Origin: Heliocidaris erythrogramma
Taxonomy: Eukaryota; Echinodermata; Echinoidea; Camarodonta; Echinometridae
Direction of reading: 5' to 3'
DNA: 64,000 nt
NCBI GenBank assembly: GCA_025617745.1
Contig: CM046855.1
Coordinates: forward strand, 46,789,813-46,853,812
In this document: in pieces, positions 10,397-62,027 of the stretch
Layout of the letters: every line of letters starts with the position of its first letter
Numbering within the stretch: position 1 is the stretch's first letter
Translations under genes and position numbers: made by a program
The notes under the pieces: generated by a model
What the model saw: the letters and a program-made list of their open reading frames with translations, nothing else
Told to the model about the DNA's origin: nothing
The model's database searches: none

Positions 10397-10438
10397 TCGC
10401 TGGAGAGCACCCGGCGTATGCTGCAAATGGCAGAAGAG
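10397..10438 (+). CDS. SNAP25: SNAP-25 coding exon 3 (42 nt)
   Basis: This exon encodes SLESTRRMLQMAEE, which differs from the well-known vertebrate SNAP-25 stretch only near its end (MAEE where vertebrates have LVEE). It is part of the first SNARE (Qb) helix of SNAP-25, a t-SNARE that pairs with syntaxin and synaptobrevin to drive membrane fusion at the presynaptic plasma membrane. The exon is phase 0 at both ends, with acceptor ATGCAG at 10391-10396 and donor GTAAGA from 10439. Its 42-nt length matches the corresponding vertebrate exon. The two preceding coding exons (N-terminus) were looked for in 1-10396 and not found, so they probably lie upstream of the window. The next exon is either 4a or 4b, both phase 0. 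Confidence 0.93.
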
Positions 10439-15968: not shown

Positions 15969-16053
15969 TGCCCCGACCGGGATTCGAACCCGGGATTCGA
16001 ACCCGGAACCCTGGATTACATGACCAGTGCTCTACCAACTGAGCTATCCGGGC
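15969..16053 (-). tRNA. tRNA-Thr(TGT)-like pseudogene, left copy
   Basis: Reads on the minus strand from GCCCGGATAGCTCAGTTGG. It is 85 nt rather than 72 because the box B/T-arm segment GGGTTCGAATCCC is present twice. A doubled T arm cannot fold as a normal tRNA, and the anticodon loop has the same U33 defect as its partner. It is called a pseudogene or tRNA-derived repeat. Confidence 0.6.
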
Positions 16054-16208: not shown

Positions 16209-16280
16209 GCCCGGATAGCTCAGTTGGTAGAGCACTGGTCATGTAATCCAGGGTTCCGGGTTCGAATCCCGGTCGGGGCA
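16209..16280 (+). tRNA. tRNA-Thr(TGT)-like sequence, right copy
   Basis: The 72-nt sequence folds as a cloverleaf. Acceptor GCCCGGA/TCGGGGC has one G-G mismatch, D stem GCTC/GAGC pairs, anticodon stem CTGGT/TCCAG has a T-T at the loop end, and T stem CCGGG/CCCGG encloses TTCGAAT. Box A (TAGCTCAGTTGG) and box B (GGTTCGAATCC) are intact. The loop CATGTAA would put TGT (Thr) at the anticodon, but position 33 is A instead of the near-universal T. It therefore looks like a tRNA-derived repeat or a decaying gene. CCA is not encoded, as normal for a nuclear tRNA. Confidence 0.6.
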
Positions 16281-18343: not shown

Positions 18344-18392
18344 AGTCAAGATATGGGCATCAAGACATTAGTAATGCTGGATGAACAAGGAG
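18344..18392 (+). CDS. SNAP25: SNAP-25 alternative coding exon 4a (49 nt)
   Basis: Encodes SQDMGIKTLVMLDEQG plus the first base of the next codon. It corresponds to residues ~39-55 of vertebrate SNAP-25 and carries the glutamine (DEQG) that forms the ionic zero layer of the first SNARE helix. Acceptor is CCTTAG (18338-18343) and donor is the strong GTAAGA from 18393. Phase is 0 in, 1 out. Exon 4b, 1.6 kb downstream, encodes the same segment with four changes (K to Q, E to D, A to M, L to M when 4b is read against 4a). The exons have equal length and phase, so either joins exon 3 to exon 5 in frame. Use of both puts a TGA in frame inside 4b. Compared with the vertebrate sequence (SKDAGIRTLVM), 4a keeps the final M but has the divergent QDM. 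Confidence 0.9.
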
Positions 18393-19989: not shown

Positions 19990-20038
19990 AGCAAAGAAGC
20001 GGGTATCAAGACTTTGGTGCTCCTGGATGAACAAGGAG
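19990..20038 (+). CDS. SNAP25: SNAP-25 alternative coding exon 4b (49 nt)
   Basis: Encodes SKEAGIKTLVLLDEQG plus one base, the second version of the exon that carries the zero-layer glutamine of the first SNARE helix. It is closer than 4a to the vertebrate sequence at its start (SK-AGI). Acceptor is GATTAG (19984-19989); the donor GTGATA from 20039 is weaker than that of 4a. Phases (0 in, 1 out) equal those of 4a. The CT tract upstream and a very C-rich 100 nt just after the donor are candidate splicing signals. Splicing 4a to 4b would read into a TGA at 20028-20030. Skipping both would read into a TGA at 29627-29629 in exon 5. This makes the pair functionally mutually exclusive. Confidence 0.9.
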
Positions 20039-29578: not shown

Positions 29579-29696
29579 AGCAACTTGATCGGATTGAAGA
29601 GGGTATGGATCAGATTAACACAGACATGAGAGAAGCAGAGAAGAATCTCACTGGTCTGGAGAAATGCTGTGGAATCTGTGTCTGCCCGTGGAAGAA
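29579..29696 (+). CDS. SNAP25: SNAP-25 coding exon 5 (118 nt)
   Basis: Completes the first SNARE helix ([20 protein letters not shown]) and encodes the cysteine cluster [11 protein letters not shown] at the start of the linker. These cysteines are the known palmitoylation sites that hold SNAP-25 on the plasma membrane. There are four here, but spaced CC-x2-C-x-C instead of the vertebrate C-x2-C-x-C-x-C, with tryptophan in place of the last cysteine. Acceptor is AATAG (ending 29578), donor GTAAGT-like GTAAG from 29697, phase 1 in and 2 out. Length equals vertebrate exon 5, which is duplicated in vertebrates (SNAP-25a/b). Here I found only one copy. It can follow 4a or 4b. Confidence 0.95.
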
Positions 29697-47036: not shown

Positions 47037-47174
47037 ATTGGGTAACTTTGAGAAGGGAGATGACTACAAGAAGACATGGAAGGGGAATGACGATGGCAAG
47101 GTCAACTCTCACCAGCCAATGAGGGTGGAGGATGACCGTGATGGGATGGCAGGCAACCAAACCATGATTACAAG
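47037..47174 (+). CDS. SNAP25: SNAP-25 coding exon 6 (138 nt)
   Basis: Encodes the linker between the two SNARE helices, from LGNFEKGDDYKKTWKG through QPMRVEDDRDGMAGNQTMIT, and splits an arginine codon with exon 7. The segment QP-RV-D-R is a recognisable SNAP-25 linker motif. The rest is more variable, as usual. Acceptor is CTGCAG (47031-47036) after a good pyrimidine tract. Donor is AAG|GTCAGT at 47175, weaker than the other constitutive donors. Phase 2 in, 2 out. The reading frame stays open past the donor into a LINE-derived sequence, up to a stop at 47344-47346. Confidence 0.93.
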
Positions 47175-51242: not shown

Positions 51243-51387
51243 AATAACGAATGATGCCCGCGAGGATGAGATGGATGAAAACCTGACCCAGGTGAGCGGC
51301 ATCGTGGGTAATCTGCGTCACATGGCCATCGACATGCAGAGCGAGATTGGAGCTCAGAACCAACAGGTTGAACGAATCACTAGCAAG
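51243..51387 (+). CDS. SNAP25: SNAP-25 coding exon 7 (145 nt)
   Basis: Encodes most of the second SNARE (Qc) helix: [40 protein letters not shown] and QVERITSK. The glutamine in GAQNQQ occupies the position of the zero-layer glutamine of this helix. Acceptor is CTGTAG (51237-51242), donor AAG|GTAAGA at 51388, phase 2 in and 0 out. The 145-nt length equals the vertebrate exon. Because it ends in phase 0 after ITSK, it can join either 8p (starting GDSN) or 8d (starting ARLN) without changing frame. Confidence 0.96.
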
Positions 51388-54824: not shown

Positions 54825-54887
54825 GGTGATTCTAACGTGGAACGCTTGGCTGTAGCTAACAGCCGTGCTAGCAAGCTTCTCAAATAG
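54825..54887 (+). CDS. SNAP25: SNAP-25 proximal terminal exon 8p
   Basis: Encodes the last 20 residues of one SNAP-25 form, GDSNVERLAVANSRASKLLK, ending TAG at 54885-54887. Acceptor is ACCATCAG (ending 54824), phase 0. It aligns with the vertebrate C-terminal exon: GDSN matches the ADSN start, and AN-RA matches its middle. The heptad hydrophobics of the SNARE helix are kept (V, L, A, A, L). It lacks the TRID motif present in 8d. It is two residues shorter than 8d and ends in lysine. No transcript evidence is available here. Support comes from phase, acceptor and alignment, which are unlikely to coincide by chance. Confidence 0.85.
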   Translation, partial: GDSNVERLAVANSRASKLLK

Positions 54888-55859
54888 AGCCCTACATGGA
54901 TTACTATGAGTGGGAACAGCGTTGCACACAACACCCTAATGATGAATCCAAGACGAATAGAAGATTACCGTCAATTTTAGCCGTTCTTACCTTATGATTT
55001 TAAATGAGTTATTCGTTAATTTCATGCCCGTAATGAGAGAAAACCAGTGGCAGTGATCTTTCTTTTAAAAAATACAATATTCCAGATTCGCTATTTAGTA
55101 AAAGCAAACTCTTTTCCTTTCTTTTCCTTTTTTGTTGGAGGGCTATAACAATGCTCTTTGCACATCATTTTCTAGCACATCCTGACAATAGATGATATAC
55201 GCTGAAAAATGTTATTAGACTGTCATAATACTAACTAATTGGGTCGTTCAAAAGCATTTCATATAACTTGATTTGTCATGTAGTGGCTGTAATTTTTTCT
55301 GTAAATTCATAAACCAGAAAAGTTCATTCTTATTCAAACCCAGGTTTACATAATTAAACTCTGACAAAAGATCTGTTGGTAAGATAAGGATTGGTCTCAC
55401 ATATGTCAAATACATGTAGCTGTTTCAACACTTCATGATATAGAAAAAGAAAGAAGAAATCCACAAAAACATTCAGCCCAATCATGTGCAATATTCAAAC
55501 AGCATTACAAAACAGCTTATTACAGGTACAGGCATTTATTGATTGTGAATAGCAAAATATTTTTTATCTTGTTATTGCTATCAAGAAATTATAATGTTTC
55601 TAAATATCAAAAAGGGATCATTGCAATCACCCACTGGGTATTATTTTTTATAGCAGATTTTTAAGGCATATTAGCAGGGTTTTTGAGTAATTTTTCCATC
55701 CCATAGTTCTGTTCGGATACACCTCCTAAAGTCATTAATCAACCCACCATGGTATTGGTTTAAAAGACAGTGCCATTATCCTTTTGATAACACTAAACAT
55801 TTATAAGAAACCTAATTCATCGACATAAAAAGTAACAGAACAAACAACCCAGCAATAAA
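54888..55859 (+). other. Putative 3' UTR of the 8p transcript
   Basis: Runs from the 8p stop to the first AATAAA. It is AT-rich with no other feature. An earlier ATTAAA lies at 55353-55358. Confidence 0.4.
55854..55859 (+). terminator. Candidate poly(A) signal for 8p transcripts
   Basis: AATAAA, 967 nt after the 8p stop, followed within 25 nt by TTTATTACTTCTATCATTAT, a U-rich downstream region. Confidence 0.4.
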
Positions 55860-58597
55860 TATCCTTTATTACTTCTATCATTATTATTTTCCTCCATTAT
55901 ACACATCTCTCTGTTTCCCTATCCATGTTCTAACTCTATAACCCTGCTTTTGAGATCTCAGTTTATTAATACTTCAATATCTTAGCATATCTACACTTCT
56001 GCATGTTAAAAAACAATGTATAGATTGCTGTGTGAAACTCTTCTATGACTATAACCATACTTGTTACTTTATAGTTTAGGATAAGTTTAGTCCATGTACT
56101 TGTGTCTTTTCAGTTTGCTTTCAAATATGAATTGAATTAACAAATCTAGTCAATATTTGTCCCCTCTGAGGTATCTAAACTCTATGCAATTTATACTTCT
56201 TGATGTTAAATGGATTTCTAGACGAAAGTGGTGGTAATATCGAAATTTGCTCCTCGTTTCGGTCTTCTTATGGTCACCCGAATTCAATATTGTGGCAAAC
56301 ATGAAGTGTCGTTTTGAGAAAAAGTGGTTACGTGTATGGAAAATCATCGTCTAATTTGTGACTAAAATCAACTGTGAAAATGTCTATTTTTTGGTGTTTC
56401 CTATTGTAATATATGATACAGGAAAAGTATGTTTCTTGCCATTTTGAACCCCTTGACTTAAAAAAGACTTCTATCGAGACATGATCGGATGAAACCCATG
56501 GGAAATGTTGGATATAAATTAAACTAATCATCAGTCAGTTAAAGCACCTGTCGATAGCTTGGGAGAAGAATTGGTACTTTGTACCGGCCAATTTCTCAAG
56601 GCACGTATATCCACCATTGACAGTGAAAGACTATCTTTATTAGGTGTTAAACTCTATCCCTACCATAGCCTGTATCCAAATGTCTGTGAAAATACCAAAT
56701 TTATCCTTACAATTATGGTACCCCGGTACACAAATTTAAACCAACGTACATGTACATAAATTGTAACTATAGCTTGAATTATCTGGTCTGTATGGTCTTA
56801 TATGCCAGTCTTTCACTCAAAAATTTACTTTCTTCAATTGCCAAAAATTAAATCTGTTCCTGCACACATATATATATATATACATGTATATATACCAAAA
56901 TAGCATCCATTTTATCATCCATCCATTTGTCCATCATTTGTCATACAATTAGCCATTATAAAGGCAAAACTCGTGATCATTAATTGAATTGATTGCATCG
57001 AAATATGAGATATTCTAAACATTTTGTCCAAGTCCCGTCTGTAAATAAACATACCATTGTTTACCACAAAGTTGTAATGAAATTTTCAATAATAACTTTA
57101 TTTGCATGGTCCTTTAATGTTAGTTATCAGCTAGAATTGCCTGTAACAAACTATCAATACCAGCATATTCTGTCCCTCTCTAGTTCAGTATGTAGTACAG
57201 ATTCATGTAGAACTACATTTTAAAGTCTATTTTCCAACTCCGTGACATTTTCCCTATAAATTACCACGCTTCCCTGCCATTCATTAAATATCTAATCCCA
57301 TCCTCCTTCATGGTATGAACACTCACTTGCATCTATCCATTCATGTACAGATTTCTGTTTATCATAGATGTAATATCTATCCACTCGTTCATTCATTATT
57401 CATACCAATTTAGAACAACCTACTTCCTTTTGCGCCCTATATCAAATTTCTCACCCTCTGTTTATTGCCCCCAGCTCCAATGACATACTCCATCACCTCA
57501 TCGCTGCATCTTTCCTTATATATTCTTTCCGAGGTCTATACTATAACTCATTTTGCTCTTTTTGCCCCTCCTTCAAGTTTTTCCCCATTTGAGGTATAAT
57601 TTTCCTCATCCTTTGTCTGTGTTTAGAATGGTAAGGTATCTATTTTGGGGAAATTTTATAATTTGGGAATGGATGCTGTTCAAGAGACTTATAAACCTCG
57701 ATGGTCCAGCAGAATTGGGAATAAAAGGATATAGGGATCCACCCCCACATTGATCTCGAGGATGCGGTGGGAGGGAACAAGCATTCAAAATAATCTCACA
57801 AGGTCGGAGGAGATGGTTTCATATGTAAATTCATGTCGTTCGTATTGTCAAGAAATATCTGACAGAAATGGGTATTAATTTTTGGGAAACAAATTTATTT
57901 GACAGAAGATATTTATTTTAAAATTGTTGAGGTGTAGGTGTAGGGGAAAGCAAATTGAATTATTAAGAAAAATCCTTTGAAAATCTGTGCTTGACTTCAT
58001 AATTGGTTTTAAAAATATCTTTGTTCTGGTGTACATTGATCGGATTGACTTCATTTTATTCATACTAGTTGTCCTAGTGCATATTAGACTGATTATTGGT
58101 TATTGTAGGATAAAAGCATGTATGTTAGCACTAGCATCCAGGAGGATATAGTGACTCTGTATTATACAAAACCAGTTAAAGTGCCCTGCCTCGCATCAGA
58201 AACGAAGAATATAAATCAAGTTGCATCGCCATAAGCCTGAGCCAGCTCAGGTTTGGGATATTATGCTTCTCAAGAAAATTCAGAGCTTAAAGTTCCCCTT
58301 TATTTCTCCACTAGCCTAAGTCGAGCAAAAAGCCCTCTCGCTCGAGGAAATAGCTCGAGCATATCATAGTCGGAGTGCTCCTTTAATGGTGAATTAGCCC
58401 ACTAATTGTGAAAAGAGTGCATGGGCTATTTGCAAACAAGCCCTAAATAGCTTGGGACAATAACTCTAATGCCCTTATCCCAATAAATTTCATAAATCTT
58501 TCTCACACTGCTCGCAGTCTAAAGTTCAGGTTTGTGATAGGCTGCATATAGCCCTTAGAAGATGACTAGAAGCAGTGATGAGGAAGAAGAAACTAAT
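55860..58597. other. Non-coding stretch between alternative last exons
   Basis: No exon or named repeat. An (AT)n tract lies at 56869-56893. 58180-58400 contains several short CTCGAG/GCTCGAG-like motifs of unknown meaning. Confidence 0.4.
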
Positions 58598-58690
58598 ATC
58601 CCAAGTGCAAGGGTGAAATAACCTGCTATTACCTTCACTACAAATTAGCTCCAGCTAGTTGCGGTCAGACTAATTTCCCAGGGTCAGGAT
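58598..58690 (+). repeat. Dispersed repeat, copy 2 (partner at 31370-31465)
   Basis: TAATATCCCAAGTGCAAGGG, TGAAATAACCTGCTATT, AAATTAGCTCCAGCTAG and GGTCAGACTAATTTCCCAGG correspond in order to the 31.4-kb copy. Confidence 0.5.
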
Positions 58691-59360
58691 TAGCGGGCCA
58701 CTTTGGAAACTCAGGGTAATGGAGACAGACCCTCGGTTTCCTTCTACCCTCCCAAAATGTGTGACTATGTTCTGTCATGCTAACCACGCTTCACATGTAT
58801 GGTACACTCCCACCTGCCAGGTGGTCACTCAATCCCACACATCCACAGGGCAGATTATCGGTAAACACCGCCCTCTCTCTTCCACTCTCCGCCTATCCCC
58901 TCTCCATCTGTCCCCTCTGCATGATCGCCAGCACATGTCTGATATCTGTCTTTTCCTCCTTGCTAAACCAGCACTTCTGCTCAAGCACCAATCGCATTGA
59001 CCTGCACTGAAAACCAGAAGCATACTTCCCAACCATTGAATCTGCTTCGGAGGAATGATTCCCATTTTTGGACCTTCCCATGAGTGTTATCAACTCTATA
59101 GATTCCACTCTTTTTCTTAAAACCTGTGTGAAATAGCATGCAAAATACATCATATTCCTCATTTTCCTTGAGGTATTCCTGCTTTCTTCTTATCAGGATG
59201 CTTGGAAGGTATGAAGAAGGGCATTAACTCATATATTTGTACATCCTTGGAGCTATCAATGCCACTGTGTCTCTGGGCAGACAGTAAATGAATACATGTA
59301 CATGTATGCTGTAGCGTGCATGCTGCTATACCTCTGAGTATTATCATACATACATACATC

Positions 59361-59432
59361 GTCTGTTGAGAGCCAGAAGGGCATTGATTATGTGTACAAA
59401 GATATGAGTTAACACCCTTCTGGCACTCATGA
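59361..59432. repeat. Small palindromic repeat (TTGAGAGCCAGAAG family), copy 2
   Basis: GTCTGTTGAGAGCCAGAAGG, GC on the left faces CACCCTTCTGGCACTCATGA, ACAGAC on the right as an imperfect inverted repeat with a ~26-nt loop. Related to 11945-12015. Confidence 0.6.
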
Positions 59433-60279
59433 ACAGACAACACAATAAAGAATGCACATACATGTTCTTTCCGATCTAAAATCTTTCTGCGATGCTTGGA
59501 TGACGCGGTGTAAAAAGCATTTGTCGTCTTATTTGTCTCACCGAGTCTGTCCCTGGGCTCTGTTCGTCTAATCTAAATGTGCATTATATTACCTGATACT
59601 ACCCTTGAGTATATAGAACTCCTTGCATTTATTTCTTTTCACATGAAAGAGCACTGTCCTGCATCAATGTCATGAACATTTTTTTTTTGTTATGAACATT
59701 ATCATCGGCTGAGATGTAATATACAGGCACTATTAGAGTATGCATGGACTTCTTGTTTGCACCTTTCATTTTTTAGCTTGTTATCTCTCTCCCTTTCTTT
59801 TTATATTAATTTTCAAGTATATCATAATTTTGTTTTTATTGCTTGTGTGTTCTTGTTGCCTTACATGCATGCTAAGGTCACATGTCTCTGTTATACTCAG
59901 CATAATACTAACCACCAGATTAAGAAAATGCAAATTGCGATTCTCGCAAGAAGCCATTGCTTTGTGTATGCATTCCAGTTCAGAAATTGATGCTGCAATG
60001 TGCGATGTTGTGTGTATATATATACATATGTATACATATATCAATGATGTTCAAACTAACCTTTCTCCTTCTTTCAAGAGACCAATGCGCCATGTTTGTG
60101 TTGAAATGTGTTGAAATTATGTGTTCTATCCATTATTTAAAAAGTTCATGTTTGTTTGCCTAACTGATACTCATGTACCATGCAATATTTACTCATTTGT
60201 TAACCCCCCATATGCTGCTGAATTACTTGTCATGTTTTACCGACCGAGATTGTGTCGTCCGACCAAATAATGTCATGTT

Positions 60280-60447
60280 CTGTCTTTTTCCCCCCTCTTC
60301 TCTCCCCCACCCCCTTTCCTCTACCTCACCCCCTCACATATAACCCACCCTCACTTGCCTCCATCACACTAATCATGATGGCTGCTCACACCCCCTCCCC
60401 CTTTGACCTCTGACCTGTCATGTGACTTCTTTCCCCCCTGTCTGCAG
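60280..60447 (+). promoter_or_regulatory. Long C/U-rich tract before exon 8d
   Basis: About 160 nt dominated by TTTTTCCCCCCTCTTCTC, CCCCCACCCCCTTTCC, ACCTCACCCC, and finally TTCTTTCCCCCCTGTCTGCAG. It is far longer than a standard polypyrimidine tract. Such tracts bind PTB or PCBP proteins. A role in choosing 8d over 8p is inferred from position. Confidence 0.4.
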
Positions 60448-60516
60448 GCACGCCTAAATGATACCCGCATTGATATCGCCAACAAGCGTGCTACGACAAT
60501 TCTCCAGAAGAATTGA
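60448..60516 (+). CDS. SNAP25: SNAP-25 distal terminal exon 8d
   Basis: Encodes 22 residues beginning ARLNDTRIDIANKRAT and ending TILQKN, then TGA at 60514-60516. Acceptor is GTCTGCAG (ending 60447), phase 0. Its length equals that of the vertebrate last exon, and TRID-AN-RAT is the conserved core, so this is the canonical C-terminus. It forms the membrane-proximal end of the second SNARE helix, the part that zips last during fusion. It competes with exon 8p, 5.6 kb upstream, for the exon 7 donor. Confidence 0.93.
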   Translation, partial: ARLNDTRIDIANKRATTILQKN

Positions 60517-62027
60517 AACGTTTCGCAATGCACTGTCTCTTTAACATGGTCGATCATGCCCCCATTCCCACTATACAAAGTCTTTACCAGTAATACCTGT
60601 ATGTGACATTGAACTTCATCATCAGTCATTTCACTCTGTCTACGAATATCCAATTAAAAGTTATAGAACTCATCAAAGACATAGTACATGTAGGATTACC
60701 ACTTTATCATGGCAATATGATATGAGACATATCACAAATTTATTAAACATTTTTGTTATCGAAATGTTAGGTGGGCAAGGCCTTACCCGGCACCTGTATT
60801 CATTTTTATTGTTTTACCTTTTGTTGTCATAATGTGCAATATTCACAATGTATCGTGGGTTGTGTGTCATAAAGATGACAATGAGTTGATCGATATTTTC
60901 TTTTGCGAAATACTCAAGCAATATGACCTTTCTTTATTTCATAGTAAGATGATATTGATTCAGAATTAGGATGCATGGAAGCTATTAAAGTTAAAAAATT
61001 ATCAATCCAGTCATGAAATAGTGATATTGTGAGGAACATGGACAAAATGAACTTCTCAAAGAGGGTATTTTACTATTACATCAATAATATTGACCATTTA
61101 GGGTCAGTATTAGGGGTCAAAATCACATGTTAGGATTTCAAATCTTGTTTTTGTGAAAGAAAAATGAAAGAGAAAAACTACAACTTTATTCGTTTGGCCA
61201 GTGAGTTGTTCCTGAATCTCATTTCTGGTGTTGTTTGTGTAGCAAGAGTGCCGTTGATGAAAAAAAATGTTTCAAATATAATAGCATTTTAGAATAGCAT
61301 CTTCACATGCTTCTATCATACATTCTGAACTGTAGAACCCTGAGCTTTAGAATAACATGCCATTTTCCGTGTGTAGTTAGCTCAGGAAAGAATTAATAAT
61401 ATGAATTCAACATGCAAAACTGCATCAATTCTTTTGCCTAGAAACATATAAGTGATATTCCTGAGTCATTTGTTTGTATATAGATATATTCTGTGTCTCC
61501 TATAATAACTATATATATGCATATAATATATACTGTGTGTTTGCTTTATATTCATAGTGCTAAGAGATATATCATATATATTCATGTGCAAAGTTATGTT
61601 ACTAGGTATTTTCAGAAGTGCTAGGACATGGTTCTCATCATAATCGAAAGAATTTGAGAACTTTTTTTTTTTTAGTGTGTGTGTAAGGAATCCTTTTAGG
61701 ATTTAGATTAGGATTTCAGAGTAATTTATTAATATCAACTGACATGAGAGTTCCTTTTTCTAAGGGTTGGACAGGCTGACAAAATGGCTAGAATATTACT
61801 TATATATAGATGGTCAACATGTACATGTAACAATAGTGTAATATTCTTTTATTTCATTTTTATTGCATTCCACTACATGTAATGAATTTTGTCCTCATTC
61901 TTTTTTTTTCTACACGGAATTATATTTTTCACAGGGATTTTAAATAGTTTTCGGTTTAAAACGTTGTTTGTATTTTAACAGGAGTTAGAGATTGGTACAA
62001 AGTGAGGGTTGTTTTTTGTGAGTATAT

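Follow-up and report, generated by a model that had tools for sequence, protein, structure and literature searches.

Three candidate alternative last exons for the C-terminal SNARE helix of SNAP-25 in the sea urchin Heliocidaris erythrogramma

Among SNARE genes, syntaxins and VAMP-1 have alternative C-terminal exons, which mainly change the membrane anchor. SNAP-25 is a core component of the machinery by which vesicles fuse with the cell membrane. In vertebrate SNAP-25 the described choice falls on an internal exon, 5a or 5b (SNAP-25a/b), the two being reportedly mutually exclusive and developmentally regulated, and the duplication of exon 5 is dated to early bony fish and reported absent in Torpedo and Drosophila (PMC2581893). 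Two Drosophila genes are also close: complexin, a single gene in which splicing to exon 7A or 7B changes the last approximately 20 residues, with the protein kinase A site S126 present only in 7B (as outlined in PMC10312600), and tomosyn, a SNARE-motif protein with mutually exclusive exons 13A and 13B, where exon 13 encodes a WD40 scaffold loop (as outlined in PMC8612732). Here we describe the SNAP-25 gene in a stretch of 64,000 nucleotides of the sea urchin Heliocidaris erythrogramma (contig CM046855.1, positions 46789813-46853812; 'the window', with window coordinates counted from its first letter) and in the adjoining DNA, where three mutually homologous exons, designated 8p, 8d and 8t, are probably used as alternative last exons, so that the final part of the Qc helix is exchanged.

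The arrangement resembles SNAP-25a/b in that a single SNAP-25 gene carries a duplicated exon, the choice of which would alter part of a SNARE helix; vertebrate exon 5, however, sits where the first SNARE motif ends and the linker begins, whereas in the urchin the choice concerns the last exon, the end of the second motif and three copies. As with Cpx7A/Cpx7B of complexin, the choice of last exon would alter the C-terminus and a phosphorylation site in an exocytosis gene, but complexin is a regulator with two dissimilar ends, while 8p, 8d and 8t are mutually homologous and form part of the SNARE helix. The tomosyn choice hits the WD40 scaffold loop, that of urchin SNAP-25 the SNARE motif; and alternative last exons in a SNARE gene are shared with syntaxins and VAMP-1, but SNAP-25 ends without an anchor, its C-terminus making up layers +3 to +8. 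The arrangement is surprising in its place and number, the general kind being known. In the open-licence PubMed Central literature we found neither a choice of last exon in SNAP-25 nor splice forms of the sea-urchin gene reported, and the main text of PMC2581893 contains none of the terms 'exon 8', 'sea urchin' or 'invertebrate'. An earlier reading of this stretch (the original prediction) likewise knew of no described C-terminal exon choice in SNAP-25, and the open-licence literature does not contradict it; automated genome annotations may already show these isoforms.

The gene in the window is sea-urchin SNAP-25. A sea-urchin origin of the DNA agrees with the COX1 gene on contig C24, whose protein equals a sea-urchin COX1 at 501 of 517 positions. 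As expected under the echinoderm mitochondrial code, TGA stands for Trp (13 codons), ATA for Ile (10) and AGA for Ser (3), whereas AAA coincides twice with Lys and twice with Asn, too even a split to assign that codon. The joined peptide of exons 5, 6, 7 and 8t scores 75.1 bits against PF00835, the SNAP-25 family domain (cut-off 25), a cysteine-rich linker stretch of the palmitoylation type is present (CCGICVC, in exon 5), and exon 7 comprises the second SNARE motif up to K184, with 71% identity to the vertebrate protein (tblastn). Genome searches, which spanned the 1.064-Gb genome (26 contigs) and were run exon by exon with the best candidates scored, so that a very diverged second gene could escape detection, detected this SNAP-25/23-like locus only: PF00835 matches at one locus, the present one, where the match falls on exon 6, and exon 7 was found once (protein search).

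Exon 7 ends in the donor AGCAAG/gtaaga at 51387 (the slash marks the exon boundary), which is in phase 0, is common to all last exons and outscores 99.94% of the GT sites of the window (simple matrix). The last exons themselves emerge from a scan of AG-led frames scored against the last-exon segments of rat and squid, both taken from PDB rows. All three lie after exon 7 on the gene's strand, directly behind an AG, in phase 0, and run for 20-22 codons: 8p (...aaaccatcag/GGTGAT at 54825; 20 codons; TAG at 54885-54887), 8d (...cctgtctgcag/GCACGC at 60448; 22 codons; TGA ending at 60516) and 8t (tctctccatctag/GCGGAG...; stop TAA). The layout is that of alternative last exons, with a single donor at 51387 facing three acceptors in one phase, each followed by a stop, at distances of 3,437 bases from exon 7 to 8p, 5,560 from 8p to 8d and 6,376 from 8d to 8t. 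Genome-wide searches also retrieved 8p (protein search, E 0.0058) and 8t (E 3.8e-6). Acceptors were ranked as percentiles among all AGs of 134 kb by the simple matrix; 8d has the strongest of the three, 8t a good one and 8p the weakest.

The original prediction thus stands in so far as 8p and 8d exist as last exons in phase 0 that show homology to the canonical one, with AG acceptors, stops and scores of 90 and 105; its description of both acceptors as good is borne out for 8d (99.7 percentile) and is too generous for 8p, whose acceptor is only fair (92.1 percentile). It was mistaken in counting two exons, as the third homologous last exon, 8t at 66893, lies outside the window, the edge of which cuts it off and made the trio appear as a pair. 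No other SNAP-25 exons occur between 8p, 8d and 8t, and a fourth copy was not found in 214 kb, a span that takes in 90 kb before the window and 60 kb after it. On the sequence evidence, it is highly probable that these are three real, constrained alternative C-terminal exons.

The resemblance to known SNAP-25 ends stands far above background. Among 3,543 AG-led frames on the plus strand of the window and 3,979 on the minus strand, 8d and 8p are the only strong matches, the runners-up scoring 28 (plus) and 32 (minus), and the best score in 60 simulated 64-kb sequences is 41, as against 90, 105 and 96 for 8p, 8d and 8t. When exon 7 is joined to each end, the match to rat SNAP-25 extends across 67 residues (best E 5.9e-24 with 8p, 1.6e-24 with 8d and 2.7e-23 with 8t), in keeping with a second SNARE motif whose layers +3 to +8 fall in the last exon. 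The three short C-terminal peptides gave no Pfam family in any of the three cases, and no relative was found among 165 pattern stretches in a prokaryote collection, as expected.

Over 19 residues, 8p shares seven identities with 8d and seven with 8t, while 8d and 8t share ten, in keeping with homology of tandem copies; identities to rat are 10, 12 and 9, and to squid 9, 11 and 11, for 8p, 8d and 8t, respectively. The nearest ends are fly SNAP-25 for 8p (12 of 19), rat for 8d (12) and squid for 8t (11), although 19 residues are too few to name an ancestor. Residues 188, 191, 195, 198, 199 and 203 (rat numbering) are invariant in all three. The SNARE layers, which we take to lie at 185 (+3), 188 (+4), 192 (+5), 195 (+6), 199 (+7) and 202 (+8), are G/N/L/A/A/L in 8p, and in 8d and 8t alike A/N/I/A/A/I. 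At six of six layer positions, compared with five of the 13 others, the residue is either conserved or replaced by a similar one (Fisher p 0.017).

At the nucleotide level the copies have diverged widely, with 30 (8p/8d), 27 (8p/8t) and 31 (8d/8t) shared bases of 57, agreement at two to seven of 19 third positions, and no similarity in any pair within the flanks (300 bases each side). Identical residues are encoded by the same codon in five of seven cases for 8p/8d, one of seven for 8p/8t and four of ten for 8d/8t. The unrelated flanks and the single codon match between 8p and 8t indicate that the copies are old, and the retention of the layers in spite of only 27-31 shared bases and unrelated flanks suggests that all three are selected. 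In a drift simulation, crude in that repeated hits were ignored, random change by the observed number of bases reproduced the observed similarity to rat in none of 20,000 trials for each of the six ordered pairs, and kept an open frame together with all layers in just 0.2-0.5% of trials; in a separate run of 40,000 from 8d to 8p the fraction was 0.0. The copies, therefore, look old and seem to have been kept as coding sequence.

The last layers of the SNAP-25 helix are those that zip last, and mutation, phosphorylation and partner binding in this part tune fusion. As the layer residues are kept, all three ends should zip, and the differences fall on the surface, at sites of recognized importance in mammals. 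At residue 187, the protein kinase C (PKC) site Ser187 of mammals, 8p and 8t carry Ser where 8d has Leu. For 8p, 8d and 8t in turn, position 186 is occupied by D, R and E, the acidic residue being reversed to Arg in 8d, and position 193 by A, D and T, of which only that of 8d is acidic. Residue 201 (K in rat) is K in 8p, T in 8d and N in 8t, and the tail past layer +8 reads LK, LQKN and LRKQ in the same order. An acidic patch formed by D186 and D193 has been implicated in the calcium-dependent binding of synaptotagmin-1 and in displacing a complexin fragment, and the same review warns that binding modes are assay-dependent (PMC9623538). The surface effects of 8p, 8d and 8t are to be taken as predictions from homology. 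The view that 8p and 8d replace the end of the Qc helix, as originally proposed, is backed by the sequence, by the controls for chance and by the simulations of constraint.

In the reading that we favour, one SNAP-25 gene would splice the shared exon 7 donor to 8p, 8d or 8t, each of which would supply the final 20-22 residues (layers +3 to +8 of the second SNAP-25 helix), its own stop and its own 3' untranslated region (UTR). The strong donor of exon 7 would meet the three acceptors in turn; if 8p were recognized and polyadenylation took place at a site downstream of it, the short form would result, and otherwise 8d or 8t would be joined. Any choice would keep a working SNARE core and alter the surface at 186, 187, 193 and the tail, the likely outcome being that C-terminal zippering and the coupling to PKC and synaptotagmin differ between cells. 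What the sequence demonstrates is the exons themselves, with their homology, phase, splice signals and constraint; use of all three by choice, a tissue pattern, a biochemical difference and an effect on fusion-pore opening or regulator binding, functions that the original prediction assigned to this part of the helix, are what we infer from the locus. Poly(A) hexamers, which are common by chance, occur behind each last exon but are convincing for 8t only (ATTAAA at +152 after the stop; AATAAA at +156, +160, +164, +168 and +221); 8p and 8d may plausibly have 3' ends of their own.

Several points weigh against this reading. The acceptor of 8p is the weakest (92nd percentile) and its first AATAAA stands 967 bases past the stop, while 8d is without AATAAA until 2,055 bases past its stop and has ATTAAA only. 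The Pfam SNARE model does not reach its cut-off on the last-exon segment, and the sharing of five of seven codons between 8p and 8d looks unsaturated, the sole result of this kind. No processed copy proving the 8p or the 8d junction was found, both regions matching only themselves genome-wide, which is evidence neither way; the analysis covered the genomic sequence of this one echinoderm. Some of these features would suit a gene in which only 8t, perhaps with 8d, is used and 8p (or 8p and 8d) persist as unspliced relics of old exon duplications: 8t has its AATAAA repeats from +156, 8p combines the weakest acceptor with remote hexamers, and 8d deviates from the family at residues 186-187. Unselected old copies, however, should lose frame or layers, which is at odds with the drift results (none of 20,000 keeping the similarity, 0.2-0.5% frame and layers), and among the last exons 8d ranks first in acceptor strength, so that relics appear an unlikely explanation.

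The weak poly(A) signals behind 8p and 8d would also fit strictly mutually exclusive exons, 8p and 8d being internal, with a donor after the stop, and spliced to a shared 3' UTR near 8t. For 8p, the 1.2 kb after the stop contain, however, one donor-like site scoring above 3 (55378, 3.79), with a background of 0.92 per kb, and transcripts with a junction far behind the stop are likely targets of nonsense-mediated decay; we hold this arrangement to be very improbable. Hardly credible at all is the view that the resemblance is due to chance, or that the exons are what remains of a second SNAP-25 gene alongside. Exons as short as 20-22 codons could in principle match by chance, and nothing else was found in favour; a chance match is ruled out in the AG-led frame scan by scores of 90-105 against the simulated maximum of 41. 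A tandem gene duplication or pseudogene neighbour is also rejected, since the only extra exon copy in 134 kb is 4b, and the single genome-wide occurrence of exon 7 and of the PF00835 exon also speaks against remnants.

If 8p, 8d and 8t are indeed used as alternative last exons, they represent a natural three-way swap of the last segment, with core layers held and surface changed, that is, a set of variants tested by evolution, and the role of the SNAP-25 C-terminal surface becomes directly testable, sea urchins having long been used for the study of calcium-triggered cortical-granule exocytosis. Single-gene invertebrates would, in that case, also diversify SNAP-25 where vertebrates, to our knowledge, do not. 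More tentatively, and somewhat short of what we would call probable, the gene may hold a combinatorial SNAP-25 code, in which 4a or 4b (first helix) is combined with 8p, 8d or 8t, the last exon toggling PKC control at Ser187 together with the 186/193 synaptotagmin-contact patch, and splicing standing in place of the vertebrate SNAP-25 and SNAP-23 genes. The four proteins first envisaged from 4a/4b and two last exons become a maximum of six (2 x 3).

The coordinates of the gene are collected in table 1. Exon 2 was not found in the window or within 10 kb upstream, and was located farther out. The DNA just downstream of the window is termed L006, and L006:2893-2961 corresponds to window coordinates 66893-66961.

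Table 1. Exons and candidate poly(A) signals of the sea-urchin SNAP-25 gene, in window coordinates; acceptor percentiles and donor scores are from the simple matrix.
Feature	Position	Strand	Evidence and remarks
Exon 2, ends MEDQNDMNMRSELEEIQMQSNMMTDE	63 kb upstream of window		score 86, next best 21
Exon 3 (SLESTRRMLQMAEE)	10397..10438	+	tblastn; acceptor 99.3 percentile; donor gaagag/GTAAGA
Exon 4a (SQDMGIKTLVMLDEQG + 1 base)	18344..18392	+	tblastn; acceptor 96.7 percentile; donor 6.48
Exon 4b (SKEAGIKTLVLLDEQG + 1 base), duplicate of 4a	19990..20038	+	tblastn; acceptor 50.6 percentile; donor 1.9
Exon 5 (EQLDRIEEG...)	29579..29696	+	tblastn; acceptor and donor scored
Exon 6 (linker; PF00835 region)	47037..47174	+	tblastn; PF00835 match; acceptor and donor scored
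Exon 7 (ITNDARED...QVERITSK)	51243..51387	+	tblastn; acceptor 97.0 percentile; donor 7.27
Exon 8p, coding part and stop (GDSNVERLAVANSRASKLLK-stop)	54825..54887	+	scan score 90; acceptor 92.1 percentile
8p candidate poly(A) signals	55353..55859	+	ATTAAA 55353, AATAAA 55854 (+466, +967 after stop); weak
Exon 8d, coding part and stop (ARLNDTRIDIANKRATTILQKN-stop)	60448..60516	+	scan score 105; acceptor 99.7 percentile
8d candidate poly(A) signals	60653..60747	+	ATTAAA 60653, 60742 (+137, +226 after stop); weak
Exon 8t, coding part and stop (AESNEQRITSADKRAKNILRKQ-stop)	66893-66961 (2.9 kb past window)	+	score 96; acceptor 98.7 percentile

Exon 4 is also duplicated, 4a and 4b being identical, by eye, at 12 of 16 residues, and the splice signals of 4b are weak by the simple matrix. 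The exon duplicated here is presumably the one before that duplicated in vertebrates. The intron before exon 4a contains two opposed transfer RNA genes, at 15969-16053 (minus strand) and 16209-16280 (plus strand; Rfam RF00005).

Elsewhere in the genome, the query peptide of exon 7 and 8p gave, besides exon 7 and 8p themselves, a single weak match, on contig C9 (E 7.98). At C9:28870268-28870426, on the minus strand, lies a 53-residue open-frame stretch that is 26% identical to the second SNAP-25 SNARE motif and has no Pfam family above the cut-off; it may belong to a SNAP protein farther removed, for example SNAP-29.

Between 8p and 8d (54888-60447, plus strand) the RBFOX-type motif TGCATG occurs at seven sites, a density of 1.26 per kb compared with 0.59 per kb upstream of exon 7; this enrichment (Poisson p 0.05) was chosen after the data had been seen and was not used as evidence. 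Hairpin-like short repeats (gagccagaagggt/cattg...aac(g/a)cccttctggc) are found around the last exons, at 59360-59430, L006:3815-3885 and L006:4720-4785, and by eye look like small interspersed inverted-repeat elements.

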